The notes under the pieces: model-generated
Told to the model about the DNA's origin: nothing
Database searches by the model: none
Seen by the model: the letters and a program-made list of their open reading frames with translations, nothing else
Translations under genes and position numbers: made by a program
Part shown: one piece after another, positions 33,656-59,907 of the stretch
Numbering within the stretch: the first letter of the stretch is position 1
Layout: every line of letters begins with the position of its first letter
NCBI GenBank assembly: GCA_947184155.2
Contig: CAMXCT020000446.1
Span: 62,001 to 126,000, forward strand
Source of the DNA: Cladocopium goreaui
Taxonomy: Eukaryota; Sar; Dinophyceae; Suessiales; Symbiodiniaceae
Direction: 5' to 3'
DNA: 64,000 nucleotides

Positions 33656-33735
33656 TCCTCGGTGGTGATGGCGCCATTGCCATCGTCCAAAATGTCGAAG
33701 ATGTCCGGCAGCTCCTCCAGGTCGATGTCCAGGAC
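33656..33735 (-). CDS. ion-channel gene: second EF-hand exon
   Basis: It reads VLDIDLEELPDIFDILDDGN and then GAITTEE. The acceptor is TACATGGACAG and the donor GA/GTCACT, starting in phase 0 and ending in phase 2. The loop LDDGNGAITTEE has Leu instead of Asp at position 1, so calcium binding by this hand is probably weak or absent. The upstream partner exon, which ends in FIRQMK, lies at 56,164-56,211, 22.4 kb away. Confidence 0.8.
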
Positions 33736-33890
33736 CTGTCCATGTAAAGTCCATCGGCGAGATGATACGACGATGTTTTTGAGTGTTTGGGATATGGAAC
33801 ACATCGTATCTATGTGATATATAAATATATTATATATATGTTATATATATATGCATACCAGCAGTGTAAGAGTGACCTTTTGATATATCC

Positions 33891-33985
33891 ATATCCCAAA
33901 AGGGTCACTTAGGCAATTATATTCCAAAGGGTCACTTAGCCATTTCCAAAGGGTCACTTAGATATATCAAAGGGTCACTTAGGAT
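33891..33985. repeat. GGGTCACTTAG cluster, left edge of the gene block
   Basis: AAAGGGTCACTTAG occurs four times in 95 bases. The first is preceded by ATATCCC, as in the single copy at 55,242-55,262 on the other side of the block, in the same orientation. Further inverted copies lie at about 45,945-46,050. Confidence 0.8.
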
Positions 33986-34029
33986 TCCTAAATACACCTC
34001 ATGTGGTAGGATCCTTAACATCAAGGGAT

Positions 34030-34095
34030 ATTGTGGTAAACCATAGGGTATCTCCATCCCATCCATCCCATCCATCCCTTCCATTTCCATCGCTG
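34030..34095. repeat. CCATC microsatellite
   Basis: CATCCCATCCATCCCATCCATC is simple sequence just below the stop codon of the gene at 34.2-40.9 kb. Confidence 0.75.
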
Positions 34096-34229
34096 TGCAC
34101 TGATCATCTTGGACGCTGTTGCCTTTGACAACTTTGTGGAGGCGCCATCTCATGGGCTGAGTGGTGGAAAGTGATTCATAAAGCAATTTAAGATCTTTAT
34201 GGTGGGACCCATTGTGGTATAGTATCATA

Positions 34230-37200
34230 TCATTCGAGACGGCGTAGCCAGCGAATGCAACAGTATGCCGAGAGACCACTTTGAAGTAGTGCCAGCAGCC
34301 CAAACCAGATGCGGCACTCAGCGCGGACCACCTTAGTGGTCCTTAGCTGACCAAATTGCCGACTGACATTCCGTCAGCCAGCCACGGACCTTAGTGACCT
34401 GAGTCGGGTCAAGGTGATTAGTGGAAAGAGTCCATCCGAAACGAGCAAGAAACGCACAAGCAGGCTTATCAGGAGCATGGGCAGGGCGACAACTACAAGA
34501 CCAGCAGATGTGATCCCAGTACCCAGCAGATTGGCACCCCCAAGGGCAGAGAGAAGAATGACCGACACCGGAGACGCGATCCCAAGTGGCAGGAGAGAAC
34601 GTGGCACCCAGCCCAACCGAAGCAGCAGGGGCAGAAGAAAGCACCCAAGAACGAACATCATCGATTTGGATGGAACGAAAGAGAGAGGAGGTCAAGGAAG
34701 GGAGAGAAGAAATCTCATGCCGACCCGAAGACGCCCACTCCTGGAAGACCCAAGCACGCCAACCTTGCCGCAGGGCATGACAAGCAGCACCAGACAGAGA
34801 AGGCAGAGTGTGACGAGAAGGGGACAAAGAAGCATCGACAGTGACCGCAGCAAAGGCATGTTGCCAAACCCACGGACGGACCTCAGAAAAGCCCTTGGCC
34901 TTCATCCAAGAACGCAGAGCATTGGAGGCAGTGCCAGAGTGACTCGACCAGACAGGACCAGAACCCTTGGACAGATGGTACCGAAAGACCGCAGAGAGGA
35001 GGCGGGTAGCCCAAACAACATCAAGGTGCAGGTTCCCACCGAGGAAGAGACAGCGGAGCCAAGGACTGCTGTACCGACACCGACGCACAGAAGACCAGAA
35101 ACAGGACCACAGCTGCTTGGAAGAGGTCCAAGTAGGAGCGCGAGCCACCCAACCGAAATTAACCTTAGACAGGGAGAACTGACGGAGATACCGAAGTTGC
35201 AAGGGAAGGGAGAAACCACAGCACCCCAACAACCGAGCACACTTCCGAGCGGCTTCGAAGCGACGAACCTCCGCATCACGATAGGCCCGACGAACCGAGC
35301 AGGACACAGCGCCCAGCACCCGGATGGCAGGGGACACACGAGAAGGATCGAAGACCTGACAAGCATCTTCAGTTTTGCGTTTGCCAACAGCTGAAACTTC
35401 ACATTTTGCCAAGTTTTCACAAAGGCCAACACTAGAACTCCACTGCGACCATGCAAGATAGATCTCATGAAGTTTGACAGCATTTCTAGCAGTACAGGAA
35501 CGATCATCAAGATAAGTCTTAATGGAGATGTCACTTTCGGGTGTCTCACAAGTTTGCAAAACAGTTTGGACCCCAGCTTGAACCCACAGGCTCATGAGCA
35601 GCGGTCCCCAAGGGTCGCCCTGAGGCTGGACTCGACTCGCATCCAAGGTGCTTGAATGGGTATGATGGTCCCATTGCACAAATCGCTCCTGCTGACGCCA
35701 AGTTGCTTCCAATAAATGAATCAGATCAACAGGCCATCCATGAGCACGAAGCAAGCTGCAAGAGAGGTTGCTGTCAAGACAGTCAAAGGCCTTGCTATAG
35801 TCCAAAGTGAGCATGAAACCATGCTTGTGGAAGTTGTCAAAGATCTCAATGATGTTCTCATAAATATCTTCTCGAGAGACGCCACCAACATTCGCCAGAA
35901 GCACAGAACGAAGCCAGGAACGAAGGGAGGTGCTACGACAGACCGATGAGCTCCAAAGGCGCCACCACACAGACATGACGCTGATTGGCCGGGCATCACC
36001 AGCTTTGATACTGTAGTCGTGAACTTTGCCTTCCTTGGGGAGGCAAACCATGCGAGACTGCCGTAGCTGCTTCGGCACATCCCGGGCAGTGGCAAAGGCT
36101 CGAAAGAGCTCAGACACCGTATTGAAGACATCCAGAGGGAGGTACTTCAACTCTTGAGCAGTCCAATTGTCAGGCCCCGCAGCACCGTGGCTGTCTTGCG
36201 CAGTAGCTTGCAACTCAAGACCAGTGGGGAATGGGATGTTAACAGCTTGGACAGGAGCAGGAACACCATGGAGAAGAGCAGCTTCTCGTTGCGAGAAGGA
36301 AGGGATGGACCGACGCAGGTCCGACCAGAAGGATTCCCAAAAGGCCTTGATGGCCTCAGAGCCCTCATGCCAGTTCTCAGTCACCGTGCCATCAGTACGA
36401 ATGACCCCGCTACACATGCTCCATTCTTTGCTGCGAAGCCATTTAGAGACATGCGAAGAACAGCTCTGTAATTTGGTACGCCAGGACATCAGGTTGGAGT
36501 TCTTGGTTTGATCACGAAGTTGACCAAGGTCTGATTGCAGCCTCGCCAGAGTAGCACGAATGTTTTGCCGAGAAGGGATAGCAAAAGATCCAGTGAGCTT
36601 CCAGGTCAGCTGCTGGAACTCATACCGTTGAGACACCGAAAGTTCATCGGTATAGTATTTGGTCCTCAACCGGCTCAGCTCGTACCAACGGGCCAGCCGG
36701 TGGCGCAGTTTGCGCTCACGCATCGGAACAAAGTTGCCAGAGGCAGGCATGGTTTCCTGCCGCACAGAAGCCACCGCACCCTTGTATTTGGAGCGCCGCA
36801 CAGGAGTGAGCGGAGCATGCAAGGCCGTCAAGAAGCAGCAGCGTAGAGTGGCTTGAAAGTGATCCCACTTTTCTTGGACAGACTTACCAGAATCAGCAAG
36901 CACCTGTTCCAAGCCAAGCTGTTCTTTGGCCTGACCCCAGGCCGACGACAACCTGTCGCGCCAAGCGTCAGAAGAGCAGTCTGACGGACAAGTGAACCTG
37001 GGACCTTTGGGAATGACACCACGAAACGGTCGCATCACCGGGAGCTCAACGGTTGTCTCCAAGATACGGTGATCACTCAGAACCATGTCAGGAGAGGTGA
37101 CCCCGCCAACCACTTCAGCACAATTGGAACAGAAGAAATCGATCTCTCTGTTTTCTTCAAACCTCGTAGGCTTACCCAAGCCAGAAATGCTGCCACCAAT

Positions 37201-40200
37201 GGCAGGCATGACTTCAGAAAAAAGGCATGCAACAGTATGCCGCCCATCGCATTAAGACCTGTCGGCCTAACAACTGCCCATTCGCCAGCAGAGCAAATTG
37301 CTTCACCTTTCCCACCTTGGTGAGGGAATGTAAGGGGTGAGATTTTTGACTAGGATATGCTAGCTAAGCCTACGCGTGTGTTTGCAGTATCTGGGGATGC
37401 TGAGAGTTTTGACTTAGAAGTTTAAGCGAGTGACATGTGCGCACACACACAAACACACACCAGCACCAATAAGTACATCAAAGCAACCATGTCCTCGTCC
37501 CCGTAGCACGATGTGTGCATAGGAGAAAACTTTTGCGCTTGATCCATGCAAATATGGTCAAGCCTTGGCTGGGCGACAATCCCTTCCCAGTAGAACCCTC
37601 CCACATCTTTCCATGCTCATTGATGCGGCCAAAGTAGCTTGTGCAGCTTCGGTCGCAACTTCCATAAAAGGCGTTTCTGCTCCAAAGCTTCTGCAGCTAG
37701 ACCTTAGAACAGCACAGAGCGCGTGTGCGCGCACACACACACACCAATGTATTCTTTAAGAATCATATTCTTTAAGAATCATATTACATACTCACACAGC
37801 CCAAGCCAACCATCCCATCCCATTACAAAAAACATAGTGTGCCACTAAGCTACTGTTCAGGGCACTGTGGAAGAGATAGTTTGCACTCTGCAGTTTTTGC
37901 AAGCACTCGGATCCCAGAATGATCCCATGCCGGAGGGAACATGCTTCACGGATTGCAACTGCATTCACAAATAATGCAGCTCGTAACCTAGCCCGAGGGA
38001 TCACCAACTTTCCATGGTGTGTTTCTGAAGTGTTTCAAGTGACATCACACTACAACATACTAGAACCAGTGCAGCTGTGACCCTTACTGTGCGTGTGAGT
38101 CATCCGGACACTTGGCAGCAATTGCCAAAGTGATACCCATAAGCCACCTCGCCAGAATCACAGACTCCTTGGCTAGTAAAACAACAAAGGCACTTTTCAA
38201 TATGTGATATTTTGCAGAATTCACTCACATGCCCCTAGAAAAGGCACATACACTAAGGCGCGATCTGATCCATTGAAATGTTTCTGAGCCAGGGTCGGAT
38301 ACTCTTTTGCACCCTGCATATGTGACCTGAGACTTAATAACTTAAGTACTTATGCAAGCTCAGCGACACCAACACAGAAAAAAAAAACACCTGGCACACA
38401 GTTGCATACCCCAGCACACTTTCCCACCCAGCAGCAACTTGTAGAATTGCCCACGGTTTCCTTGGGAACATGGCAGACAGAGAGTGGTTAGGGTATATAG
38501 TTAAACAAAACCATCAAAACGCGCATATCGTGTCATATTGGGTCCACATGCAAAATGAGATTCGGATCTTGTGAGTCCTGCACAACTTGGTGAATTCAGC
38601 ATAAGCTGTTTGTAAACGATCGTCCACAGTTGATCCTGCGAACAAGCAAACGCTATAGAATGCACAGAAAATTAGTGTGAAACAGTCACACGCAATGCAC
38701 CCCTGACTCACATAATATGCATGCACATAAACACAATCATGCCTGCCCATACTTCATCAGTCTGTGTCAATTCCACCAGAGCCTGCATAGAGGGTATGTT
38801 TCTTTTGATGGGCTAATCACTGCATACGAAAAACATGCATCGACCTTGCATTGACCATGGCATGCACACCCACAATGAAATGCAATCAAGAAACTGAAGC
38901 TGCCGCATCCGGCACAAGTGTGAGATCAAAGACATGGAGTAAATCATATGTCATCACATCCACATGCCACCCCGGCAGTCGCACCCATGGATTGGGCTTG
39001 CACAATTGTATAAAGTCACTGGTTGTTAAGAAGGTTGTTCGATGCTGCGCATTTGGTCCAAAATGGGTATATAACAGACTTGATGTTGACATCCGTGAAG
39101 CCTTGCATGTCCAGCATACCTGTTGAGATAGCCAAGAGACGCCAATGTGGTACGCTTTGGCCAGATACTTCTCGTCACCACGATGGGCGCACAAAACTGC
39201 TCTCCAACCCCCAGCCAACTCCTTCCCTTCCAAACCTTTTCGGCTAGGAACAGTCTCTCCCCATGGTCCTTTGTCCAGATACCTCCCCGACATCAACTCT
39301 ACAAGGGACCACACCATCCAGCTGTCCATGGTGTTCAACGTTTCGTCACACGTTTTGGAGCTGTCCAGACAGTAGCAGAGCAGCCGGGATTCCCACGGTG
39401 AGCTACCTTTGACAAGTAGGGAAGCAAAAGAACAAATCATAAATGACCTTCTTCTGTGACTCTCCGCGTCATCCCCATGCAAGATCAAAGGGACACATTT
39501 CGATAGATTCGTGGCCTCAATGTTGCACATAAACTAACCATGCATACATCCATGGCTCACAGTCTCACCAGCACGTTACACAAGAATGTGCATGCGCCAT
39601 TTTTTGCAGACATGTAGCCGGATCACTCAGAATGGGGTGTTCTTTGAAGAACTCTGTGTCCCGAAAGTGGTTCCAGAATCGCATGATTGCCTTGAGGGCA
39701 TCACAAATCCCTATCATCAATCCCCATCCCACATCTACACGCCCACCACATGCAGTCTATGACAAGTTGCCGACTCATCATCACCTAGAAAACGTTGTCG
39801 GAACAGCTTCTCGTCATAGTGGAAGATAGCCGAGAACCTTGGATCAGCAACAGGCAAACACCCACTCATACACCCCTCGAGTGAACACACAGAAAACACA
39901 CAGACACACACACACACACTCATGCACATATACAATCTTTTGAGCCATGACTCACATCACTGGGTAAGAACATGTGCCATGAGGACATAAAGTACTTGTT
40001 CTCCCGGGACGGATCTTCAAGTACAACTTCCACCCTTAGCTGCTAGCACGGTGTCAAACCAAATTTTGTTTGAACCATATAACAGCTAGCTCATGATGCA
40101 CAGAGTAGCGTTACATACTGTCATTATTGTCAAGACACGTAATCGGGTTGGGGAGCATTCGTCTCCACTGTTGTCTAGATACCCACTGCCAGAAAAGCCT

Positions 40201-40904
40201 CTGTGCATTTTTTTCATCATTCCTCTCCATACGCAACAGGTCTCGCATGTTTGACCTTGGGAGGGTGATTGATAGATGGTATCCTATGAAAAAAAAAGTG
40301 ACAATGAGTATACTCGGAACCTGTGATTCCAATGGCATAGATTGCAGCTGGAGTCACGGTAAAAGCCTTCTTGGGAATCGTCTTCGAATAATATTCAACA
40401 TAGACATGATAGTTTCGACACTGACCTAGGTGTTCATCAACCTTTGAACACAGGTTCATTGGATCATTGGAAACAATCACCAATGGTATACTAATCTAAA
40501 GTTTTTTTTTGCCAAGCCACTTTGCGCCCAAGCTCTAGAAACTCCTCCACCAGATCCATAGTGGTGAATCGCCGAGCTTTCGTTGGAAAGCCACATGGGT
40601 CCCCAGAATTGAGTCAATGCCGGGTTTCCCTTGGATCCCCATAAACGTAATTCAAGTGCGTGTTGTCACTTAGAGGTTTGGTTTATGATCCATTAATGTA
40701 ATCTCCATTTCATATGCCTTATAACTTTTTCGGGGCCAACTTCCATTGTTTTATGTAATAGCCCCACATCATCAACTGTTATATGCCATATATTTTCAGC
40801 TGTATATTCTAAGATATGCATATATACCCCATACCTTTAGAGCCACAAGAGATACACAGCTTGTGAATGCAGGCTGCTTCAGAGGAACCCATCTCAACTG
40901 TCAT
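34230..40904 (-). CDS. member of a recurrent dinoflagellate protein family, multi-exon, interrupted by a retrotransposon
   Basis: Many minus-strand exons form one coherent protein. In order: a possible start at 40,904 (MTVEMGSSEAAC), about 40,600-40,521 (GDPCGFPTKARRFTTMDLVE), 40,480-40,310 (KVDEHLGQCRNYHVYVEYYS), 40,285-40,120 (YHLSITLPRSNMRDLL, LFWQWVSRQQWRRMLP), 40,030-39,955, 39,860-39,765, 39,715-39,615, a large exon near 39,510-38,886 (LILHGDDAESHRRRSFMI, GDEKYLAKAYHIGVSW), 38,640-38,555, 37,989-37,835, 37,690-37,635 (KRLLWKLRPKLHK) and 37,529-37,488 (CYGDEDM). The last exon, 37,315 to 34,230, is split by the retrotransposon; without it the end reads AAYCCIRWLRRLE and a stop at 34,230. 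From memory this family is abundant in Symbiodiniaceae, with no known function. Confidence 0.65.
34255..34270. repeat. target-site duplication, left copy
   Basis: ATGCAACAGTATGCCG is identical to 37,227-37,242. The two copies flank the retrotransposon exactly and lie inside the host coding sequence. Confidence 0.9.
34271..37226 (-). mobile_element. 5'-truncated non-LTR (LINE-like) retrotransposon
   Basis: About 2.96 kb between the two 16 bp direct repeats. It holds one long intact reading frame, a 62 bp 3' trailer (34,271-34,332) and no poly-A tail. The 5' end is cut inside the endonuclease. The identical duplications and uninterrupted frame suggest a recent insertion. It is oriented like its host gene. 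Confidence 0.9.
34333..37224 (-). CDS. retrotransposon endonuclease (C-terminal part) and reverse transcriptase
   Basis: The frame is open from the truncation point; the first ATG is at 37,209 and gives 958 residues. The N-terminus keeps the end of an APE-type endonuclease (REIDFFCSN, then LSDHRILETTV with the SDH motif). The reverse transcriptase follows: MLTLDYSKAFDCLDSN (first catalytic Asp), RVQPQGDPWGPLLMSL and TYLDDRS, where YLDD carries the catalytic Asp pair. The C-terminus has a Cys/His cluster (CPWGC, then HICWSCSC), as in the terminal zinc knuckle of many LINEs. It copies its RNA into DNA at a nicked target. Because the endonuclease is truncated, this copy is probably not autonomous. 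Confidence 0.9.
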   Translation of the reverse strand, partial: LFSEVMPAIGGSISGLGKPTRFEENREIDFFCSNCAEVVGGVTSPDMVLSDHRILETTVELPVMRPFRGVIPKGPRFTCPSDCSSDAWRDRLSSAWGQAKEQLGLEQVLADSGKSVQEKWDHFQATLRCCFLTALHAPLTPVRRSKYKGAVASVRQETMPASGNFVPMRERKLRHRLARWYELSRLRTKYYTDELSVSQRYEFQQLTWKLTGSFAIPSRQNIRATLARLQSDLGQLRDQTKNSNLMSWRTKLQSCSSHVSKWLRSKEWSMCSGVIRTDGTVTENWHEGSEAIKAFWESFWSDLRRSIPSFSQREAALLHGVPAPVQAVNIPFPTGLELQATAQDSHGAAGPDNWTAQELKYLPLDVFNTVSELFRAFATARDVPKQLRQSRMVCLPKEGKVHDYSIKAGDARPISVMSVWWRLWSSSVCRSTSLRSWLRSVLLANVGGVSREDIYENIIEIFDNFHKHGFMLTLDYSKAFDCLDSNLSCSLLRAHGWPVDLIHLLEATWRQQERFVQWDHHTHSSTLDASRVQPQGDPWGPLLMSLWVQAGVQTVLQTCETPESDISIKTYLDDRSCTARNAVKLHEIYLAWSQWSSSVGLCENLAKCEVSAVGKRKTEDACQVFDPSRVSPAIRVLGAVSCSVRRAYRDAEVRRFEAARKCARLLGCCGFSLPLQLRYLRQFSLSKVNFGWVARAPTWTSSKQLWSCFWSSVRRCRYSSPWLRCLFLGGNLHLDVVWATRLLSAVFRYHLSKGSGPVWSSHSGTASNALRSWMKAKGFSEVRPWVWQHAFAAVTVDASLSPSRHTLPSLSGAACHALRQGWRAWVFQEWASSGRHEISSLPSLTSSLFRSIQIDDVRSWVLSSAPAASVGLGATFSPATWDRVSGVGHSSLCPWGCQSAGYWDHICWSCSCRPAHAPDKPACAFLARFGWTLSTNHLDPTQVTKVRGWLTECQSAIWSAKDH
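37227..37242. repeat. target-site duplication, right copy
   Basis: Identical to 34,255-34,270 over all 16 bases. On the minus strand it encodes the end of RWAAYCC of the host gene. Confidence 0.9.
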
Positions 40905-41489
40905 CTTGACAGAGGCCGGGAACTTGGGGTTTGGCACTGGTAGAGGTGAAATTAGATCATCTAAATTGTTTTCTTTCACATGTCAATGTAAGACGACTCC
41001 GCTTCGAAGATTGGTGCACGATCGTTTATTGGATCGTGTTCCCATAAACATATCAGCATCGAACGTGGTAGCTGATATAAACCCCCATGTCAAAACAGCA
41101 CCATCAGCCAACAATATGAATGAAGTTTACAACATCGAACAATTAAATCTTCAGTTTGAATGATACCCATGTGCTGGCTGAAAGTCATCGTTTCTACAAT
41201 TGTCAAGTGCCCATCATCGCTCATTAGAAACAACATATCCAATCAACTCTGAAAAAGATTTCACCTGACAAAATGAATTTACCAATATTTACCATAATTT
41301 GACAGGCACTTGCAGTGACTCGCTCAATGACCACACTTGGGTCAAGTAGGACACACCCATACACATGTATGCTTCCATGGTGGATTTCCCATAAGGAGCG
41401 GATGATGCCATCATTGCGACCTTTGGTGGTATATATGCACAAGTGTTTGTTGATTATGATTATATCATAAAGGGCCAACTTATTTCAAT

Positions 41490-44400
41490 TGCTTAATCAT
41501 CCTCCCCGGAACCACTTGCTTCGCTGCTCTGGACAGGCTCAGTGTCGTCAGCCTGAGCAGCCCTCTTGCGGGGCCCCTTGGCAACTGACACTCTGCGCTT
41601 GCCGTCCCTAAGATCCTGTTCGATCACTGCCAAAAGTGGCTTTTGGGTATCTAGCCAACTATACAAGTCATCGGGATCAGCCTGCGAAACAGGGAGTGAT
41701 GCCTGGTCATTGGCACCATCACAGAGTCGTGGTAAGTCTGCAAAGTGTAGTCCGAGAACACGCACCTAGGCTAGGATTTCCATAAATGATATCACATATA
41801 CTTAAGGGATCGAGTTAAGACCCTATAATATTTTTTCGTGTAATTGGTAGCCATGCAACATTGTGGGATATTGTTGGGTTAGGGTTGGTTCCCATACGCA
41901 ACATGTTATATTTGTGACAAGGCACGAGCTCCTCATAGTTGCGAACCTTGAGATTTGAAAGGTCATCCATGCACTGCGGCACTTCGTTCAGGCATCTCTT
42001 GTACCTTAGGCATCAATAACATCAAGTATGGGCTAGTTGGGACCTTTGAGATATGATGGAAAACCATCCACAGATCTCGACAGTAATTATATTATAGATC
42101 ATAATTGGAATCAGGGTACTTTGTGAGAAGTTGTTTGGCTTCCCCCAAGGCTGTCTGAGCTGGCGTTTTCTCTTTCTTTGCCTTCTTACTTCGAACAACT
42201 CCTGTCTTAAGGTCCATTTGGGACTGGGATTCAAGACTCTCCATTCCAACCTTAAGTTGCTTGGCGATCATCTCTTTCATAGAGGCAGACCTAACTCTGC
42301 CACCCACCCGCATGTCGGTCTCTCCCCTGGTTCCAGTGCTAGTGTTTTCAGCTACTTCACGTAGCACTTTGTACATTTTTGCAGCCTCGTTGTTTGGACA
42401 TTGAGGATGTGGAACTCCAACTTGTCCTTAGCTATATTTGACAATCAACACTTTATATATTTCGATCATCTTCCAACTGGCTGCATCGTATAACATACAA
42501 ATTTAGAGTTCCAGCCAGGATTCCCTTGGTAACTGACTCCACGAAAGCCTTGGCCTCTTTCGAGCGCCCGTAGATTTTGTAGAGTTGCAACTTTGTCACC
42601 TGGGATGGCTTGTGACATGATATTAAATGCATTTCTTAATGGATAGTGCATCCAGAAAACCGTTACGTACTTGTCTGTCCGAAGCTGTTCACACCACTTC
42701 GTGAAGCGCTCTTCAACAGTGATGGAATCGATCTTTCCATCGGATAGAAGCCATTGCTTCAGCATGGACCACCTAGTGGGAAAACTCTGGGGCATATAGG
42801 GGTTGGGGTTTTGAGGTTTAAAAGAATAATACTTTTGATCGATAGATTATATGATTCCTTGATGGCTCGATATATCATATATGATATGTGATCCCGCCCC
42901 CAGTATATAGAAGGGATATGAAGGGATCTCTATGATATATGCAAAAAACTATCTTGACTCCACCATCCCATCCCCACCTTTCCCCATCAGAACTCAAGCT
43001 GAACTTAGCAAGGAGCGCTGGCTCACATGACCTGATCACAGCCCTTCTCAGGGCTGAGTACTGCCGTTTCCGTTCATCATATGGCATATCCTTTGGTGAT
43101 GCCATCTGTTCCAGGGCATCTTTTTGTTCCTGGCTTAACTTTTGGATCCGGGTCTTCTTCTCACCCTTGACACTTGAATCTCCTCCTGGAGTACTTCCCT
43201 GCAATCAGGTTGTGCTAAAAATCATCGGTTGCTTTGGTCCTAAAATTTCTAATGGGTGTGAGTGTTTGGATTATTGGAAATTGACATCAATATCAGGGGA
43301 TGCCAACCCACACCAACAACACCCCTGAGATAAGTTCAAACTGGCCTGGCTTCCCGTCTGACAGGTAGAAGTGGGGCTCAACGCCAGTCCACCAAGAAAG
43401 CTTGGCATGGTCCTCACTCTCTCGATTGGGGGCTTGGGCGAAGCCACATCGGACGGTGGGTCCTGGCAGTCAAGCATGGTCAAACCAAGGGATCTATTTG
43501 ACAATAAGATATACAAGTACCACAGCACTCATAGAACTATCGTCGACCCAACTTGACAAATTTGAAGATGTCCTATAGGCACCCAAGTAACCTGTAACAA
43601 TACTTGTTGACTTAATATATAGTATAGTGATAGTCAAACTCTGAGCCTAGCCTCAGCATCCTCGTCAGAACTTGATTTCGCATCGTCAAACCTGAGCTTC
43701 TTCTTTTCAGGAGAGCAGCCCGTATGGCTACCATTGTGGTCTCGCTTCTCTGCTTTGTCCTGAATTGCCAACGGCTTGGGTCGTTTGACATGCTGGTTCC
43801 CACTGGATGCAGTGGTGGAATCCTCCTTTGTGCTATCTTCTCCCTTTCTCTTGGGTTTCCTTGTTTTTTCGGGTGACACTTCAATCACTTGATCACTGGA
43901 GCAAGCCTCAGCGCCCTCTGGGACACTGGTTCTGCTTTTTGTTTCTGTCACATCTTTCAGAGCTAGAACTGTGGTTGGTGCCTTCTCTGGCTGAGTGGCT
44001 GGTGCTTTCTTGGTCTGGTCGGGCTTGGTGGCTTCTCTTGACTTCTCAACTTCCTCAAGTGCGAGTGGTTTCTGACGTGCCAGTGTTGTGTCGTGTGGAT
44101 TGCCCTTCTGCGTATCAGTATTTTTCTTTTCTTTCTTGTCCTTCTTTGTCTTCTTATGTTTCCTGTCATTCTTGTTGTCCTCCTCGTCGGGCTGCTTCAA
44201 TCCACCAGTCTTGGAATTGTCACCACCTTCCGTCTCACGTGTTTCCTTTTCCTGTTCTACCTCCCTTGCCTCAACTTCAGAGTCATCGTGCTTTGCCTTC
44301 TTTTTTTGAGGCTTTCCACCATCACCCAGTGGTGCTTGCGTTTCCTGCGTCCCCATCTCCTTTGCCTCACCCGCTTTGCCACTCCTGCCCGATTCGTTCT

Positions 44401-45715
44401 TCCTGGTACTCTTAGCATTTTGACCTGCTTTATCATCTTTGCTGGTGTTCTCATGAGCTGCGGTTGCTTCACTCTGCTGAGTAGAACCTGAAGGCTTCTC
44501 CTTTTTCTTCTCCTTTTTCTGTGCTTTCTTGCCAGTCTGTGAATCGCCTTTATTTTCTGCAACCTCACTTGTGTCATCCTTCTGAGGTGTTTTCTTGCTT
44601 GTCTTTGTTTCTACATCAGTGGTCTTTCCAGCTTCATTGGTCTCCTTCTTATCTGCAGATCCTTCTTTGTCGGTCTGCCGTGTCTGCTTCAGAGGCTTCT
44701 CCGCTTTCTTGGTCTGTGATCCCTTTGTATTCTCATCTTGCTTGTGAGCATCAATGTCTTTCTTGCTGCTTTCGCCTCCTTGATCTTTCGCTTTCACCTT
44801 CGTCTCACCTTTCTTCTCAGTGTCTCTACTCTTTGACACCTTAACCTTGGTCGTCTTCTCCTCCACCTTCAGCTCCTCAGTCTTTCCCTCAGGTGCCACC
44901 TTCTGAGTTGTTTTCTTCTTCGCAGCATCTCCTTTCTTTAGATCCTCCTTGGTGTCCTTGTTGCTGTCCTTGTTGCTGTCCTTGTTGCTGTCCTTGTTGC
45001 TGTCTTTGCCTGGTGCCTTCTCACCTTCCTTGTGAGCCACCTTGCTTGTCTTGCATGTGTTCTGGCCTTCCTTCTCTGACTGTGCAGACGCCTTTTCCTT
45101 TTTCTTGCTGCTTTCGCCTCCTTCATCTTTCGCTTTCACCTTCGTCTCACCTTGCTTCTCAGTGTCTCTACTCTTTGACACCTTAACCTTGGTCGTCTTC
45201 TCCTCCACCTTCAGCTCCTCAGTCTTTCCCTCAGGTGTCACCTTCTGAGTTGTTTTCTTCTTCGCATCATCTCCTTTCTTTAGATCCTCCTTGGTGTCCT
45301 TGTTGCTGTCCTTCTTGCTGTCTTTGCCTGGTGCCTTCTCACCTTCCTTGTGAGCCACCTTGCTTGTCTTGCATGTGTTCTGGCCTTCCTTCTCTGGCAG
45401 TGCAGGCGTCTTTTCCTTTTTCTTGCTGCTTTCGCCTCCTTGATCTTTCGCTTTCACCTTTGTCTCACCTTTCTTCTCAGTGTCTCTACTCTTTGGTTCC
45501 TTTGGCTTGTCCTGCTTTGTCTCAGGTGCCACTGCCTTGTTGCCTTTCTTGCTATCTTTCTCAGTCTTTGGGCCATCTGGTGTCACTTCCTTTAGTTTTG
45601 CCTTCTCAGTCTTATTCTTCCGTATGGTCTTCTCATCATCATTCATGAAAGTATCTGCTGAACTTGCAGCAGTAGAAGCCTTACCTTTGTCCTTTGGGGC
45701 TTGTGTTTTTCCCAT
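41490..45715 (-). CDS. Lys/Glu-rich repeat protein, multi-exon
   Basis: The start ATG at 45,715 (MGKTQAPKDKGKAS) follows an AG (CACTGCGCAG) that could serve spliced-leader addition. The first exon, to about 43,640, encodes nearly 690 residues, mostly Lys, Glu, Thr and Ser, with a ~100-residue unit repeated two to three times (KSRDTEKKGETKVKAKD, GQNTCKTSKVAHKEGEKAPG) and variable SNKD micro-repeats. Later exons are about 43,493-43,320, 43,200-42,965 (QKLSQEQKDALEQMA), 42,780-42,480 (MLKQWLLSDGKIDSITVEER, TKWCEQLRTDKYVTVFWM), 42,376-42,110 and 41,765-41,490, ending GSGEDD and a stop. The globular tail recalls other uncharacterised dinoflagellate proteins. The charge suggests a nuclear or nucleic-acid-associated role, which is inference. 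Confidence 0.6.
44760..45490 (-). repeat. coding tandem repeat of ~300 bp
   Basis: Two long near-identical units and a partial third lie in the first exon of the Lys/Glu-rich gene. They differ in the number of 12 bp CTTGTTGCTGTC micro-repeats (SNKD in protein), the mark of recent slippage. Confidence 0.8.
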
Positions 45716-45944: not shown

Positions 45945-46090
45945 GACCTTTTTGATATCAAAGTGACCTTTTTGATATCAAAGTGACCCTTTGAGATTAC
46001 TAAGTGACCCTTTCTTTGATATCAAGTGACCTCTTTTTTGATATCAAAATGTCCCATTGACACGCGATTGACACGCATTGACACGCACCT
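45945..46090. repeat. AAGTGACC and GACACGC short repeats
   Basis: AGTGACCTTTTTGATATCAA and related phrases recur five times, then TTGACACGC three times. AAGTGACCCTTT is the complement of the GGGTCACTT phrase found at the edges of the block. It lies between two genes. Confidence 0.75.
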
Positions 46091-46359: not shown

Positions 46360-49300
46360 TACTGCCGCTCAGCCAAGTCATCTTCATCAATGTCACATCG
46401 GCAGTCATGCGAGACACCAAGCAAGATGACATATTCCTCCCTGGATGCGAAGTGGGAATTGGATATCGTGCATACACTACAGTGTTTTATTTGTCAAAGA
46501 CCACCCGTATTTGATACAAAATCACTAATTGGTATTGAAATCAGAAACATGTTATGATATTGGTAGGTCGTGTGCCCCGCCTGGGTGGGTATCGTTCAAG
46601 TTGAGGCGCCCAACAGCTAATGCAGATTCTCTCACGGGCGATAGTCAGCAAAAAGTTCATCCATTGCTCTTTGGTCCATTTCTCTCTAGTCATGTTTCTA
46701 ACTTGTATCCTTCTGAGCTTGGAATGGCTTCTTGAAAACTACTACTGAAGAGATACCATATGTCATTGAACAGTGTGGACTATGATCTAACCATCTCAGT
46801 TCCCTGCACTACCTCGTGGGTATGATATGGATTTCAAATGTTTTTGTAGGATTCCAAAACCCCTGAACCCAGCTCCATGGAGACCTCGGTAACCATTCAA
46901 TTTTACCGATGCATCTTTAAATATGTCCTTAATCCCATATCAATTCTTTGGTTTTCCAGAGGGTGCCCAAAGATAAAATTGAATGATCACACATGCATGT
47001 ATGCCACAACTTTTGTCACCGCCCTTTAGCTGTGCCATGAGGCCTCAAAGTTTGCGCCAGTGGCACCGATCAGGGCCTTTCAATAAATCGTCCAGGCAGC
47101 CATCATCATCGCTGTCTGGGTCATCAGCTGTGATGTTGAGGTCCTGGGGCAAGCACACCATAACCCAAGAAAGTAAGGGATCTAGCTGTGCATGCACGTA
47201 TATATGCATGTATAGATCTGGGGTTTATATATATATATATATATATCGGAAAATAACCACCAAATTCAAATGGTCATAGGGGCCCAGGATAATAAAGCAT
47301 GTGTAGTGCATATCAACTACTGTTCACCACCCAACTATATGATTGCCGAATTGTGTAAGCGGTGTATTTGGGTAAGAATATCACCCGACTATACCCGACT
47401 AGTATAGATCCCATAGGTAACAAATGTGGATGAAATGAGTCACATAGGATAATATGGGATAATAACCATGAAGAACTTATGGCTATAGGTTATAGACAAC
47501 CAAATACATTCCACAGTTGCAGGCCCACTGTGGGAACATCTTGCAACCCCCTTATGGTTGTTTAGTTGACTCTTAAAAGTCACAATTGCACGAACAATTA
47601 TCAGTTGGAGATTTTTATATTTTTTTTTAACACCCCATCCAAGCTCACTGAATCATTTAGTGGTGGCTACACTGGCGACAGGATTAAACATGGTTTAAAC
47701 ATATATATATTTTTTGCCAACCCCAGTCCAGTGAAGAAGGTGGCGAATTGGTAGGGGCAAGCAAGGCTGCCAGAGCCAACCCAAACTTAAGAGGGTATTC
47801 CCCTGATCGTTTAAGCTGTTTTGCCTTTCCGTTGACTTTCTTCACACCCGTGGATTGGTCGACATTGACCTCGACCAGCTGGGATTTGCCATGAATCCTG
47901 GACGAAGGGCAGGGCAACTGGAATCATCAGTAACAAGTTCGGCTACCGCGTGAAGGTTGGTTGAACTGCTACTGCTGTGGCGAGATCGGATACTTGAAGG
48001 TGTGACACTGGAGGGCTGTCCCAGCACTCGACATGACGTGCACACTCTGTGGAAACAAGGGACACCTTGAGAAACCCTTGCTCTACACCATGGGATGTGA
48101 AGCTGCTGACATTTCTCAGCAAAACAGAGATGTTCCGATGCTTTGGTTTCATGGAACGATTGCCTTGAAGCCTTGTGGTGGCTGAAGACTTGGCCGAAGA
48201 CTTCATCACATAAATTGGAATGGTTTTCCTAATTTATAGTTGATGTTTATACATGAAAACCCAGATCCCCCCACCAGCTTGCTGACAGGTCCTCTTCAGT
48301 GATTCCTTCAGCATCTGCACATTCAGAGGCCGGTTGAACGAGTCCAACTTTTCGATGGTACCATGAAGCCTTATGAGTGCAATGGCACCACGCAATGGCA
48401 CCACGGTATGTCATTCATGAAATATTTTTGGATCTATGATATATTAAAAAACGTGTTGTTGTCTCAAACCCTTAATGATTCGATGTAGGTCAAAGATATT
48501 GGTATGAACCCAAGTTAGCATAGCCAAGTAGCACTGTCGGTTTTAAGGTGCAGGCACCGAAGTCCCCCATGCAAAACGATACTCTCCTGCATGCATGTAT
48601 GCACACCATGTGGTAAATCGTTTGGAGTAAAGGATAAACACAGAAATTTGACCTGGGACTGATTTATTAGCACTTATCATATGGCACCAAAAATATTCCC
48701 TTTGATAATTTTCAAACCTAAAGACCACAGCCCTGTCCTGCACTGCGCCCAACGAAGAAACTTTCGCACAGGTGGCCACAGCCACATCACCTGAGATCGG
48801 AAGGAGCAAGGGACCAGGTTGTTTACATTGGGTTGCAAGTGCCCATGGCTACGGGTATACATAAAAGGGGGAAATTAAAACATAAGCCGGTAAGATGGGC
48901 GAGACACTGAGGATTGTGGCTGCTCAATCAATATCTTCACACCCCTCTTCACAGCGAAGTAGAGTCTCAGTTCAGACATGCAGAACATCATTTAAGATAT
49001 CATATCATGGGCCCCTCATCCTTATGAAGTTCAAGTAACATATAAAGAAGTCGTCGCACCAGTATATTTGCCAGCTGAACACACTTGCGATCATTGCCAC
49101 CAGGGTTGCTCCATGATCTTCCCGTGATTGAGGAAGAAAGAAAAATCCATAATCCACATGGTGGAGCACATACTAGTAGGCCTCCAACTTTAGTATTGCG
49201 TACCTTGGATGTTCCAATGGGTCCAAATCACACCCGGAATGAACCATTTATAGCAATAGGCTATATAAAACCATATCGCAAATAATATATGCATGGTATA

Positions 49301-49760
49301 ATCGTTCCAATCCATGTAAATGCAGGCAGGTTGCTGCCATCAGGAGTGTAACGAACCCAACAGTTCTCATCAGATTATGGTTGTTCGAGTAAAGTACCTG
49401 AGCTGAAATACAACAAAAGATTCCTGAGGGTTGATGGAAACTATCTCCCAATTATCATGTGGCGCAGCATTGTCAAAAACCATCTGCTGATTATTCCTCT
49501 GGGTTTCCTTTTGATTATTACCCGCGAATAGTAACCAAATATAAGTTTAACCCATGGATTTGTTTTTACGATCATACATTGATCCATTGGTATACCCAGG
49601 CACGTCAAATTCTTTCCCTCTAAATCCACTCATGCGAAGGCCTTTGGAGAGGTTTGCGCGGCCTGCGCATATCTCCACCTGAGGACTTAGGATGGGGCTG
49701 GATGGGTGGAGTCGGGTGAAGTTCATCTGCGAGTTTCATCAACCTTTTTGGGAAAACAAT
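46360..49760 (-). CDS. poorly defined multi-exon gene
   Basis: Separate minus-strand segments read as protein: 49,755-49,630 (LMKLADELHPTPPIQPHPKS), 48,815-48,680 (DVAVATCAKVSSLGAVQDRA, VVFRFENYQREYFWCHM), 48,375-48,265 (HGTIEKLDSFNRPLNVQMLK), a Cys/His/Ser-rich stretch at 48,200-47,900 with uncertain frame, 47,165-47,052 (DLNITADDPDSDDDGCLDDL, then a stop if read through) and 46,445-46,360 (EYVILLGVSHDCRCDIDEDD, then a stop). One gene is the simplest reading, but two are possible. I recognise no family. Confidence 0.35.
47222..47247. repeat. TA microsatellite
   Basis: A short (TA)n tract in an otherwise ordinary interval. Confidence 0.7.
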
Positions 49761-50430
49761 CAATGAACCATATTTGCAACCAGGAAACAAAATCATTCGG
49801 AGCTTCAGGGAGTTGTACTTGCCCAAGAAGAAGTAAAATGGGAAGAAGGTGTGTGGCTCTCATGGCTCTAACCCCGAAGTCTAACCCTTTGAAACTTCAA
49901 TACATCAGGCTGAGCTTTTGCTCAGGTATGGAGCCAAAAACGTTTCTCGATTACATAAATCCAATCCTTTCGCTAATGGTCATGCATAAATCAATCTGAA
50001 TACGCGCATTGACCAGCAACACAAATAATGTTTCATATATCATATGCCAGCGCGTTGCATGACACATATTTTTTTTCGCCAAGTCAAGGTAGACATGTAT
50101 CACTACAGGTATGACACCTGCATGTCGAAAGATGGCAACAGGAAAGCATACAGCCATGCAGGGACATAGATGAGTTGAACCATGTTTGATGACATTAATA
50201 TGGATAAACCAGTGGGGGCCCCTCTATGCACGGCTGTTAATGCAAGTTGCGCCAAACCCCATAGGAATCCCCCTAGTTTGAAGCCACCATGGGCAAAAAC
50301 ACACCTGGACATTTGGCTGCCAGTGTATATGCAGCAAAGGCTTTGATTGAAACAACAACTTGATCAAGTGTCGATGTTTTTTTTTTGGTGGTAAGCTTTC
50401 ATGGAGTTGGGCCCCAAATTCCAACAGCCT

Positions 50431-53400
50431 TTACTCTGCCTTTGACTTCTTCTTTTTAAGTTTCTGGTGACGGGTCTTTCGACCGTCATCTGCAGCAGAC
50501 GCCTTGAATCCAACCTGGACTGCCTTGGCAAGGGAATAGTACTTAGTCCCATGGGGGTCGATAAAGACCTTATAGGTATAGTTTTTCATTTTCCCGCTCA
50601 ATCTCTTCCGTGTCTCGATTTGCCAGCCATCCTGCGCATCAGCAGTTGCAATGACTTCGAACTTCCTTAGTGTTGGCTTACATGTCGAAGTTATTTTGGG
50701 ATCCCCATGGTGCAGAAACACTTATACATTCCAAATTGTATAAGTTAAATAAGACCAAGTTTCCCCCTGTCTTTTGTCTTTCCTTTTTTGGCATTTAGAA
50801 GAGCTAGCTGGTCTGCTGGACATGGAACCTTTGCATTGGCTCTATCCAAAGCTTCTTGTTGAACCCTGGAAATAACCACTTTGTAGGCTGAAAAAGTGAA
50901 GTCCTTGGCATCAACGCACTCCACCACTGAAGTCTTTGCAGAGTCCTGCAAGCTGAGTTAAAAGAACCATGCCGTATATAAATCTGAAGGGATAAGGTGA
51001 TATCCTGGGCCCCATGGCTAGTTCTATGATTCAATGGTGTAGAATGGTGTAGCAGTATCCCACCATAGTATCACTCCCCAGTCAGTATACAATGATAAAT
51101 TATCTGTTTCACTATAGCTGGTCGTGGAATGGGGGTCACACTATTTTTTCTTTAAGCATATTTCCCATGATAGTATCACTACTACCCAGTCGATAAATAT
51201 GATTCTGATAATAATATAATTGATAATGATAAAACATCTGGTTGTGCAATGGCGGCTAGCGGAGGCTCTTCCTCCCTCTTCTTCTTGACAAAAGCCTTCG
51301 AAGGCTTCACCGCAGCTTTGGGTGCTGGCTTCTCGGGAGTCAAGCTTCCTGAGTGGTTGGATGACAGGGTCTGTATCTATATACAGTACTAGGACTGCTG
51401 TTTTTGTTTTTTTAAGATGTACGAAATTGACCATATGCATCCATATGCCATCCATCAGAATTATGATCGAGGCATCATATTTTTTTCCTTGTAGAAAATT
51501 GCTCCAGCATGTTTAAATCGATCCCATCAAATCCCAGTTGAGTATAGTTTAGACCAACTTGTAAAAAAAATGCCAACAAGACTCGAGCACTCTTTGTTCG
51601 ATGTCGGCGCTTCGGGGCCTTTGTCTCCTCCTGTGGCTTTTCATCCTCTTTCTCACAATCCTTCCCAGAGGTAGAGGTAGGAGTTGGTTTTGGGAGTTCT
51701 TTCATCTCAAGCTCCATTTTTGCCAAACATACTGCCTCCTTGCTTGGCATGGCAACTGGCTTAGCAAATCTAGGTCCTGGCGTTGTCCATCTCCGTATGT
51801 TTGATTTGGGAAATTCCTTCCTCACACTCCATGTTCCCGGCTGCACCTCTTTCTTGACCTTCACATCGTCATCCTGCGAGTCATCATTGTCGTCTTCTAT
51901 GTCTTCATCATCATCTTTCTTTCCTGCCTTTTTCTTCACGTTCACCTTTGCCTTCTCTTTGCGGGTGCACGCAGCAGGCTTCTTAGGGGCTGCTTTGCCT
52001 TTGGGTTTCAACCTGCCTTCTTTGTTCAAAGCAATCGCTTGATCTACTTCAGCATCAGACAAGCCCATGGTCGTAAACCCAGCAGCAGCAGCACTGGGAC
52101 GTCCAAGTGGTCTGGCTTGGCTCAGCACTTTTTTTCTTTTCAGATCACGTGTTTTTGACGTTTCATCTTCCTCATCACTGCTGTCATCCTCGCTATTGTT
52201 GCCACTGCTGCTGCCTGTGCTGCTGCTTGAACTAGATGAGCTAGCCTCACTTTTGCTTTTCTCATCAGGACACGTCTCTTTGTCTGATTCTTTCTCAGCC
52301 TCATCTGCCTTTTCATCATCGCTTTCATTTTCATCATCCTTTTTAGCCATCGATTTGTTCTCATCGGGTTCCTTTGTGTCTGCAGGTTGTTCTTTTTCTT
52401 TGTCATCGTCCTCACTTGCCTTTGACTTCTTGTCTCCATCTTGTTCACTTTCAGCGTCACTCGTGTCTGTGCCGCCTTCACTCATCAGCTCCTCGAACAA
52501 TTCCTTGTCGTCGATCACTTCATCCAGGACCTTCTTCATGTCTGCGCGTTTCAACCAGCCAAAGTGAGACCTTCTTAAGTCTTCCTTCGCCTTCTCTTCA
52601 TCCTCAGCATCCTTTGACTTCACCTTCTCCTCAGCCTCTGCTTCGCTTTCCCCTTCTTCACTTTCCTCCTCATTGCTGCTGCCTTCACCTTTGTCTCTTT
52701 GCTCCTCTGCCTCCTCTTCCTCATCTTCAGGCTTTTCGGTGACTTCATCTTCATTACATTCTTCATCTTCAGCATCCTTTGACTTCACCTTCTCCTCAGC
52801 CTCTGCTTCGCTTTCGCCTTCTTCACTTTCCTTCTCATTGCTGCTGCCTTCACCTGTGTCTCTTTGCTCCTCTGCCTCCTCTTCCTCATCTTCAGGCTTT
52901 TCGGTGTCTTCAACTTCATCACATTCTTCATCTTCAGCATCCTTTGACTTCACCTTCTCCTCAGCCTCTGCTTCGCTTTCGCCTTCTTCACTTTGCTCCT
53001 CATTGCTGCTTCCTTCACCTTTGTCTCTTTGCTCCTCTGCCTCCTCTTCCTCATCTTCAGGCTTTTCGGTGACTTCATCTTCATTACATTCTTCATCTTC
53101 AGCATCCTTTGACTTCACCTTCTCCTCAGCCTCTGCTTCGCTTTCGCCTTCTTCACTTTCCTCCTCATTGCTGCTTCCTTCTCCTTTGTCTCTTTGCTCC
53201 TCTGCCTCCTCTTCCTCATCTTCAGGCTTTTCGGTGTCTTCAACTTCATCAAATTCTTCATCTTCAGCATCCTTTGACTTCACCTTCTCCTCAGCCTCTG
53301 CTTCGCTTTCACTTTCCTCCTCATTGCTGCTTCCTTCACCTTTGTCTCTTTGCTCCTCTGCCTCCTCTTCCTCATCTTCAGGCTTTTCGGTGTCTTCATC

Positions 53401-54976
53401 ACATTCTTCATCTTCAGCATCCTTTGACTTCACCTTCTCCTCAGCCTCTGCATCACTTTGGCCATCATCATTGTTGGATTTTTTCGGGGAAGAATCCATA
53501 TTGTCATCTTCTGAGCTCATCTCATCATTCGCTTCCTGGGCTTCATCACCTTCATCTGATGATGATTGCTCTCGACTCTGTGCAGAGGCTTCTTCAGCTT
53601 GTGCAGCTTTCACATCAAAGGTTTCAGCCTCATCACCTTCACTTTCTTCAGTTTGCTCCTCTTCTTCTGCTGTGGGAACTTCTGAGTTGCTTTCTTCTCC
53701 TGCATCCTCCTGCTTCTCCTCAGCCTCGCTTTCCTCGCTCGAACTTGAACTGCGATTGTCTTCATCTTCGTCTTCACTTTGGGGTGCTTTGCGCTTTTTA
53801 CTTCCTTTTCCTTCATCTTCATCGTCCTTGTTGCTTTGTTCCTGCGGAGAGCTGGGATTTGGAGAAATAACCCTAGGAGATGATAGGCTTAAGCTGGAGA
53901 TGGCATTTGGGTGATTGGACTACCCGTAACATATCATTCAACTATTAGCAGGCTGGGTTATTTTCAGCAACTAGTGGTTGGGACAATAATATTGAATGGC
54001 CTCACCGTCATCATCCGGAGTTTCAATGGTGTCCATGGACCCAGAATGCAACCTTGGATATTTGGTACATGAGTGCGAGGGCATGGAATACTATATTAAT
54101 TTGCCTAAGGAACATCTGTTCTGCTTCCAAGACTGAGAAGTCCATTGGCAACGTATCCACTTCATCGGGATTCCTCAGATCCATACAAAAGTGGTGATGA
54201 TCAATGAACATGTTTACACCAAGTGCATGCATGTGTGACATAATAAGTTCCCAGTCACACAGTTGACAGTGATCGGGTTGAGCTGGATGATGAACGGAAG
54301 GACATTTTTTTATGGCGTATCATAACTTTGTGGCACCGCCCAGCCTCAACACATGTACAAATGGTGTGTTAAACCATTTTTTTGCACAATGTTTTTTCAG
54401 AACAAACAAGTTTTCAGCACTTCAGCAATGGGGCTTGTTCTCGTACCCAGGATTCCTTCTCAGTCTTCTTTTTGCAGGGGCCTAAGGATCAAAACAATCC
54501 AACAACAACAATCAGATGAACCTTGTCGTAACAGAATATGCGTTAAACCAAGTTGCATAAATCATGGATAGTGGCAAGCTGGTGGACAACCCTTCTTACC
54601 TCTCCCTCACGAGGAACCCGCTGAAGTTGTGCATATTCAAAGGCATCTCGAAGCCAAGAATTGCCACAGATCCTAATGTCCCCACCAGGAACCAACTCTT
54701 GATCTTCCTTCAGGGTTTCTGGCATGAACTTCTCCATGGATTTGCGAAGTTGCCTGAGATAGTGTTGCTAGATGGGATATGGGATTGGAATATTGAACCA
54801 ACATCCAACCATCCAACCACTTGTGTGCCAATTTTATAGTCCCTATGTTCTAGTTGATAGATCCTGAACAAGAATTTCCCGAGTGACAATTCAATTATGC
54901 CAAGATGCTGGCCCTCATAGGAGAGATTTTTCAACAAAGTCCCAGGGTCATCCAAGGGTTCATCTGTGGATGCCAT
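50431..54976 (-). CDS. acidic-repeat protein with basic linker and MBD-like C-terminus, multi-exon
   Basis: A likely start is ATG 54,976 (MASTDEPLDDPGTLLKNLSY), after a pyrimidine stretch and two AGs suited to spliced-leader addition. Further exons lie at about 54,755-54,594 (ETLKEDQELVPGGDIRICGN; donor GTAAGA) and 54,170-54,045 (NPDEVDTLPMDFSVLEAEQM). The main exon, 53,841-51,600, carries five to six copies of a ~55-residue Glu-rich unit (AEAEEKVKSKDAEDEE, TEKPEDEEEEAEEQRDKGEG), a Ser/Asp tract and a Lys-rich stretch. Smaller exons at 51,340-51,250 (KPSKAFVKKKREEE) and 50,950-50,750 follow. The last, 50,695-50,431, reads DGWQIETRKRLSGKMKNYTY and KVFIDPHGTKYYS, resembling a methyl-CpG-binding (MBD/TAM) fold, then a Lys-rich tail and stop. 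A chromatin role is inferred. Confidence 0.6.
52560..53470 (-). repeat. coding minisatellite, ~165 bp unit
   Basis: Five complete and one shorter unit are nearly identical in DNA. They differ by small in-frame deletions (for example the missing SEEG at 53,300 and VED at 53,400). The repeat makes the acidic domain of the surrounding gene. Confidence 0.9.
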
Positions 54977-55241
54977 GGCTGCAAACTGGCAAAGCCCAAA
55001 GCGGTGGTTGTTGATTGGGTGTTTCTTTTCATTATTCACTGGTCGATGGGGCATCATGTTACATATAGATCGCCATCCCACCAGTTCCCCTGCCGCAACA
55101 TGAATGTCCATTCATGTTCCTCATGTGCCTTCACCTGAGCCGCAGGTGCCAAGAAGAAGCAAGCGGAGCTGCCCTTCACGTCCAATCATCCCCAACATTA
55201 TTAATTCCCCAACTAACCATCATAAAATATCAGAATATAGC

Positions 55242-55340
55242 ATATCCCAAAGGGTCACTTAGTATCACAAGTGACCTTGTTCAGGTCTCAAGTAACCTTT
55301 CGATAAATAATCTCTAAGGGACCTCAATTGGAGGTCACTT
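55242..55340. repeat. GGGTCACTTAG motif, right edge of the gene block
   Basis: ATATCCCAAAGGGTCACTTA (55,242-55,261) matches the first copy at 33,891 except for one A, in the same orientation. AAGTGACC, AAGTAACC and GGTCACTT variants follow. Confidence 0.75.
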
Positions 55341-55629
55341 TGAAGATCCTGGTACATGTTATATATATATTATTTATATGTCACGTGTACATATATGTAT
55401 GTTATATCATATGGAACAATGATATGTTTATACATGATATGAAACATAACTTGTAACATGATAACAGACTTATGTAACATGATTATAAATGATTATGATG
55501 TTCCATATCACAACCTGAATATGATTATGTAAATATCATAAAATATTGGAAATAATATTATATATGATATGGGGTCATATGATGTAGTGATGGAATGCAT
55601 TCTTGTATTATATAAATATCATATTAAGA

Positions 55630-55765
55630 TACCTGGACCCTCGAAGTACTGAAAGTGCAATGATTACTTTGGCGACACAAGATTGGTCAATGCCAATCTC
55701 TTCTCGTACTGACTGTGATGGATAGTTCGATGTCCAAAGAATTAACATAGGTAACACGCTGAAAA
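55630..55765 (-). CDS. exon-like segment with a helix-turn-helix pattern
   Basis: The minus strand reads LWTSNYPSQSVREEIGIDQS and then CVAKVIIALSVLRG after an acceptor ACCATTTTCAG. The pattern EEIGID-S-VAKV...LR is that of a helix-turn-helix, similar in spacing to the N-terminal part of ISXO2-like transposases. It has no neighbouring catalytic domain, so it may be a relic. Confidence 0.3.
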
Positions 55766-55942
55766 TGGTTAAAAGTGTGCATTTACATACATGGATACCT
55801 TTATAGTCCTTTATACAATGATATACACTCCTATCTACATCTCATGAGATTCCAGCAAAACGACAATCCTCAACCTCGGTTGAATGAAATCCCATCCCAT
55901 TATACTGGTTGATAGGCAACCCAATGTAAATTACCGCTGAAT

Positions 55943-55981
55943 CCTGGGGCTACCTGCTTCACTGAAGCAGGTAGCCCCAGG
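55943..55981. repeat. perfect 18 bp hairpin
   Basis: CCTGGGGCTACCTGCTTC at 55,943-55,960 and its exact complement at 55,964-55,981 leave only a three-base ACT loop. It stands alone in AT-rich DNA about 180 bases below a channel exon. Confidence 0.9.
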
Positions 55982-56163
55982 TAGCACAGGCCTTTTTTTG
56001 AATAATCAATAAGCAGTGGCAAATAGTGGCGAATCTATATAAATAAAACATCAAAAAAAACATGTTCCAATAATTTCCAAATCACATCCATGTTATAAAT
56101 ACCATCATAAATCACCAGCATTAAACAAACCCCGCTATTTGTTTATCGTCCAGTCAACCTCGC

Positions 56164-56211
56164 CTTCATCTGCCGGATGAACAAGACATCGTCCAAGACA
56201 TCCGTGAACTC
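56164..56211 (-). CDS. ion-channel gene: linker exon between the EF-hands
   Basis: It reads EFTDVLDDVLFIRQMK, phase 0 at both ends. The acceptor is TGCGCCAAG. The donor is GC (AAG/GCGAGG). Its first Glu is the last ligand of the first EF loop. Its last residues run into VLDIDLEELPDIF of the exon at 33,735. That exact fit, in residues and phase, is the main evidence that the two halves are one gene. Confidence 0.8.
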
Positions 56212-59905: not shown

Positions 59906-59907
59906 AC

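Follow-up and report, generated by a model that had tools for sequence, protein, structure and literature searches.

A same-strand gene block with transposon ends inside a channel intron of the dinoflagellate Cladocopium goreaui

We analysed a window of 64,000 nucleotides of the Cladocopium goreaui genome (contig C446, positions 62,001–126,000; other contigs are named likewise, and genome searches covered the 1.166-Gb assembly). The minus strand of this window carries a gene for an ion-transport/EF-hand channel, and one intron of this gene holds a block of same-strand coding regions (called here genes A, B, C and D) together with a long interspersed nuclear element (LINE). A preliminary description, made from the sequence alone, had taken the block for four apparently complete genes in a tandem array that cuts a calcium-sensor domain, and had named a genomic insertion that breaks the channel and an assembly chimera as alternatives. 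The block has defined ends, it recurs in near-identical copies with different flanks, a LINE is nested in it, and the channel exons on its two sides are joined at the protein level.

The channel gene and its long intron

A search with the channel tail found P0011, a protein of 976 amino acids on a contig of 3,191 bases (17 member sequences); with these two lengths the contig must be intronless and cDNA-like. P0011 aligns to 37 channel exons of the minus strand, between 83,519 and 25,102 in window numbering extended into the flank (exon matches were listed at 80% identity or more on that strand), all of them in order, on a single strand and on the single contig C446. The features around the block are as follows.

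56,164–56,211, minus strand: channel exon before the intron (EFTDVLDDVLFIRQMK), placed by exact P0011 residues and the splice site, with a GC donor at 56,163
33,736–56,163, minus strand: intron of 22,428 bp, from the P0011 exon mapping
33,656–33,735, minus strand: channel exon after the intron (VLDIDLEELPD...), an exact P0011 match

Both exon joins of the preliminary description hold: P0011 requires exactly the junction of 56,164 with 33,735, with its GC donor and an AG acceptor, and exactly the following junction of 33,656 with 32,912. The whole block thus lies, as had been supposed, in one intron of about 22.4 kb whose flanking exons are joined in the cDNA-like sequence. Our script resolved 35 of the 36 channel introns, with AG as acceptor in all and GC (13), GA (15) or GT (7) as donor, and the single mismatch to P0011 (F in the genome, S in the protein) falls at the remaining junction. 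The other 34 resolved introns measure 152–3,863 bp, against 22,428 bp for the one with the block, with a median of 774 bp over the full set of 35. The intron does split the EF-hand pair, as described, but it sits between the two loops and inside neither. Across the joins the Effrenium homolog P0014 is unchanged except for G-D in place of G-N in the loop region, and the Symbiodinium homologs are close. Channel paralogs on C74 and C5109 have the EF-hand pair within one open frame; with such long-frame paralogs as a guide, no upstream channel exons were found. An end of the channel near 32,737 was considered and rejected, since P0011 gives a donor at 32,802 and further exons down to 25,102; by the same donor, the final residues of the channel tail query are not channel sequence.

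Some further features of this gene (25,102–83,519) were noted in passing. The assignment of GA donors to 15 of its 35 resolved introns could be a matter of chance or an effect of the script; a genome-wide share of 19.8% GA donors is given in the published genome account (PMC9412976). Its second-largest intron (58,340–62,202) contains tandem arrays with units of 7 and 215 bp (58,679–60,444), and a perfect hairpin with 18-bp arms and 1 base between them, spotted by eye, lies at 55,944–55,980, in the part of the long intron that remains outside the block.

Ends, copies and nested LINE of the block

Comparison of the block with the rest of the assembly gave the following features.

33,856–55,354, minus strand: very probable DNA transposon of 21,499 bp, of which about 18.5 kb remain once the LINE is subtracted (ends sharply defined by the C5832 copy, collinear C5086 copy, terminal pattern)
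55,333–55,354, minus strand: terminal inverted repeat, 5' end, TACCAGGATCTTCAAAGTGACC (end comparison with copies, terminal pattern search)
33,856–33,877, plus strand: terminal inverted repeat, 3' end, TACCAGCAGTGTAAGAGTGACC (end comparison with copies)
33,903–33,980, plus strand: subterminal GGTCACTT repeats, four exact, with others at 55,253 and 55,333 and an inverted one at 55,269
45,961–46,031, plus strand: internal AAGTGACC repeats, four exact, just upstream of gene C
34,271–37,226, minus strand: LINE with a reverse transcriptase open reading frame (ORF), recognized by RVT_1, by its absence from the C5832 copy and by 16-bp duplications at 34,255–34,270 and 37,227–37,242

Two copies define the extent. 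The one on C5832 is 98.7–100% identical to the window (over 33,856–34,270, 37,227–41,028, 48,935–52,185 and from 53,827 to the right end); similarity ends abruptly at both element ends, and its flanks are unrelated to those on C446, no match to the channel tail being found on C5832 among the 19 matches listed. The copy on C5086, of 17,746 bp, is collinear with the C446 element over its full length; its conserved exon pieces are mostly 50–90% identical, its low-complexity exons less so. From these comparisons the element spans 33,856–55,354, which are the edges of the block. Without element and LINE the channel intron measures 929 bp, near the median of the gene and a normal size for it; the average intron reported with the published genome is 838.8 bp (PMC9412976).

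The element is found at many other places. In whole-genome searches, pieces of genes A, C and D matched many contigs in common and in the same order (matches in a repeat near 46.0 kb were excluded from the gene comparisons). When all 37 matches to the MBD-like exon of gene A were set against the best 41 of 150 rows for gene D, 33 were followed on the same strand, 9.5–13.9 kb downstream, by a gene D match; the four without such a partner are at C78:71,640 and on C2473, C5820 and C442. Gene D exons are nearly identical on C2391, C6159, C147 and C1169, and the flanks differ in the three of these copies whose flanks were read (C147, C1169 and C6159), from which we conclude that movement was recent.

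The termini are inverted (TACCAG...CTGGTA), each reading TACCAG...GTGACC and then continuing into GGTCACTT-type repeats. A search with the terminal pattern TACCAGNNNNNTCAAAGTGACC gave 27 exact matches in the genome and none for the reversed control pattern. Twelve of them form inverted pairs 17.7–19.5 kb apart on six contigs (C147, C376, C1169, C2391, C6159 and C5086), three mark one end each of copies already identified (C446, C5832 and C3223), and the other 12 are further single ends. No two of seven copies share their flanks, which are mostly TA-rich, and in all seven a TA stands outside CCAG/CTGG, for which a TA target duplication would be the simplest reading.

The LINE of the preliminary description is likewise confirmed. 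Its ORF matches RVT_1 (Pfam, E 3.7e-12) and it is flanked by a 16-bp duplication, ATGCAACAGTATGCCG, so that both marks of such an insertion, reverse transcriptase and target duplication, are present. It interrupts the last exon of gene D and removes the final residues. Since it is missing from the C5832 copy and has its own duplication, the LINE arrived after the transposon.

Two further loci with related sequences were noted. On C78, two MBD-like exons (71,640 and 90,015) lie 18.4 kb apart on the same strand, with a gene D match within 15 kb downstream for the second only. On C864 (63,222–78,391), the NCBI C. goreaui model P0003 joins the gene D exons of a copy to Na/H exchanger exons that follow on the same strand after about 8.6 kb; this could reflect a further insertion into an intron or a fusion made in annotation.

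Genes carried by the element

The coding regions, all on the strand of the channel gene, are listed in their order of transcription.

50,431–54,976, minus strand: gene A, an acidic low-complexity exon and an MBD-like last exon at 50,434–50,721 (partial exon structure; conserved blocks in C5086, Pfam)
47,045–49,863, minus strand: gene B, methyltransferase-like (P0054, a full-length homolog, aligns in exon pieces, with gaps, from its first to its last residues)
46,380–46,693, minus strand: perhaps a fifth, small ORF, lying between genes B and C (conserved blocks in C5086)
41,493–45,715, minus strand: gene C, a K/E-rich first exon followed by conserved blocks, with no function assigned (genome copies including C5086)
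34,230–40,559, minus strand: gene D, transposase-like, its last exon split by the LINE (the Effrenium protein P0001, 574 amino acids, maps over nearly all of its own length; motifs)

Same-strand coding blocks were thus rightly described, but not four complete genes, since the LINE cuts gene D, complete frames are unproven for the others and a fifth ORF may be present.

Gene D is the putative transposase. P0001 shows the motifs HGDD and KGD (D236), C256/C259 with C256 twenty residues after D236, H512/H516, and E536 twenty further on. The H(3)H followed by DED is also found in P0003 and P0006 (the remaining retrieved homologs end short of that region), and the spliced gene D of the window has HKLDH. 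Although the choice of the catalytic acidic residues is ours by inference, gene D has the arrangement by which transposases of the CACTA/EnSpm-Mirage-Chapaev-Transib (CMCT) clade are recognized, with C(2)C and H(3-4)H between the second D and the last E, and its order D-D-C2C-H3H-E is that of CACTA, Transib and RAG1. In RAG1 the motif spacings are nearly the same as well. The main D exon is free of stops in 18 of 20 copies, and pN/pS against the C446 copy was 0.27–0.59 in 18 divergent comparisons, in which synonymous sites are saturated. A protein search found 10 homologs, the named ones being from Effrenium, Cladocopium and Symbiodinium. More distant relatives in the genome (about 25–37% identity) are often single open frames of 600–650 amino acids with several near-identical copies, and are probably other transposon families.

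Gene B contains the motifs VEICAG, APPCGLW and LIEQP, of which the PPC and E motifs resemble those of C5 methyltransferases. When its homologs P0054–P0057 were scanned, AdoMet_MTase appeared in P0056 only (4e-4, below the cut-off), and a PDB search with a profile of B homologs returned two matches, both at chance level. Five homologs were found by protein search, the named ones from Durusdinium and Cladocopium; distant relatives in the genome (about 30% identity) include many near-identical single open frames of 309–326 amino acids. For gene A, the C78 copy passes the Pfam cut-offs for MBD (22.4, cut-off 21) and DUF7028 (37.7, cut-off 27), and the copies on C5086 (MBD 12.5), C446 (15.9) and C5832 (15.9) stay below both.

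Origin of the block and its relation to known elements

We are confident that the block is a cut-and-paste transposon of about 18.5 kb in an otherwise ordinary channel intron of about 0.93 kb, later hit by a LINE, and that the EF-hand pair is still coded. The transposon would have entered the channel intron at a TA within TA-rich sequence, in the same orientation as the gene, and the LINE then in the last exon of gene D. The intron would thereby have grown to 22.4 kb with its GC-AG splice sites and both neighbouring exons intact, and would be removed whole; it is from these intact sites and exons that the pair is taken to be still coded. Gene D may be a transposase of the CMCT kind that acts on the terminal and subterminal GGTCACTT repeats, cleaving at the inverted ends and integrating at TA, which would make the terminal TA its target duplication. 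Lying on the host strand, the element could have its genes transcribed within the unidirectional gene block of the host; for C. goreaui, PMC9412976 reports expression of transposon genes oriented with the block and none of opposing ones. Genes A and B may influence DNA methylation in favour of the element, by analogy with the TET/JBP genes of fungal transposons, for which such a role has been proposed (PMC12730594), and in keeping with the mostly CG-methylated genomes reported for Symbiodinium (PMC5890265). That it belongs to a giant Symbiodiniaceae transposon family with a RAG1/Transib-like transposase, its own methylation writer (B) and reader (A), surviving in a heavily CG-methylated genome through self-managed methylation and through host-expressed same-strand introns harmless to the host mRNA, is a broader idea that we put forward tentatively.

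A number of points weigh against this picture. No empty insertion site was seen; P0001 had no Pfam match at E up to 5, and a profile of D homologs had no match in PDB. DNA_methylase was not matched in the four gene B homologs P0054–P0057 (E up to 5), in which a methyltransferase is met only below threshold. The gene models of the element are partial or approximate, and the functions of A, B and D are those that we infer. The TA may be part of the repeat itself, as the targets are TA-rich and TA is inseparable from the repeat, and on C446 each flank contains the 15-bp string ATATATATATAACAT, at a distance of 1 base from one end and 3 from the other, which would leave room for a longer duplication there. 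The ends read CC..GG if TA is the duplication and TA..TA if it is not, whereas most, though not all, CMCT members have 5'-CA..TG-3'.

As to the channel, P0011 differs by one residue, the strain from which it comes is unstated, and it may represent an insertion-free allele or strain; it supports the exon joins at the protein level and is not proof of splicing in the C446 allele itself. The insertion could hence be real in an allele that makes no correct channel mRNA, through truncation or mis-splicing into element exons, and the great length of the intron compared with its neighbours and the same-strand splice sites within it would fit. With all channel coding exons and splice sites intact we think this unlikely: of the earlier suggestion of an insertion that breaks the channel, the insertion stands, and being intronic it leaves the coding exons unbroken. 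An assembly chimera, for which the near-identical C5832 copy might have misled the assembler, is very unlikely, because each edge of the block coincides with a terminal repeat also present on other contigs, the flanks on C446 differ from those on C5832, and the 37 channel exons keep their order on either side of the block without a change of strand or contig. Separate host genes in a tandem array might be expected from Polarella glacialis, where nested genes are described as common, up to 18–24 per host gene (PMC7245778), and the genes here are indeed multi-exon and conserved; that the whole block recurs at many loci as one unit, with the same defined inverted ends and unrelated flanks, makes such an array very improbable. 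We give as little credence to an integrated DNA virus or Polinton-like element, which the size of 18–20 kb and the several genes might suggest: the element genes are intron-rich, and no polymerase (including the protein-primed DNA polymerase), capsid, ATPase or integrase family was found among the ORFs and gene pieces scanned, the low-complexity parts and some ORFs lying outside the scan.

Among known systems, the transposon comes closest to the CMCT clade, whose members have terminal inverted repeats and target duplications of 2–5 bp. It has inverted ends, with TA at both in seven of seven copies in TA-rich targets, likely a short TA duplication such as that of ESTA. Some fungal CMCT members carry cargo related to DNA methylation, TET/JBP, in place of which this element has methyltransferase-like and MBD-like genes. 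There is no family-level sequence match and the host is a dinoflagellate; judged by motif order and ends, it would work like the CMCT kind rather than being a proven member. Zisupton (KDZ) elements have an 8-bp target duplication, according to PMC12730594; no 8-bp repeat directly adjoins both ends in any of the seven copies. SymbioLINE-Dnmt and SymbioDIRS-Dnmt3 (PMC5890265) are likewise mobile elements of Symbiodiniaceae with a DNA methyltransferase, which this element may also carry, but they are described as retrotransposons with intronless methyltransferase ORFs; the genes of the present DNA transposon have introns, and its gene B matches no known DNMT family. In Polarella, too, nested arrays place several genes within introns of a single host gene, and the architecture therefore has a precedent; the example given there includes light-harvesting genes confirmed by full-length transcripts (PMC7245778), whereas the genes on C446 are parts of one transposon.

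No description of the family was found in the open-access literature by title and opening of the abstract, subscription papers and Repbase being outside this search, and the element looks like a new, recently active transposon family, possibly with DNA-methylation genes. A puzzling nested array thereby becomes one mobile unit that has defined ends, exists in copies and moved recently, and other "nested genes" of dinoflagellates consequently merit a check for the same origin. Should gene B be a DNA methyltransferase, a DNA transposon would join the methyltransferase-bearing retrotransposons of these algae. The C446 locus is also a natural test of dinoflagellate splicing across 22 kb of same-strand, gene-bearing DNA.

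Elsewhere in the window (14,767–25,615, 56,369–56,474 and 63,597–63,975) there are short interspersed repeats of about 60–110 bp in both orientations that resemble miniature elements, and similar repeats occur in the flanks of the C5832 copy.

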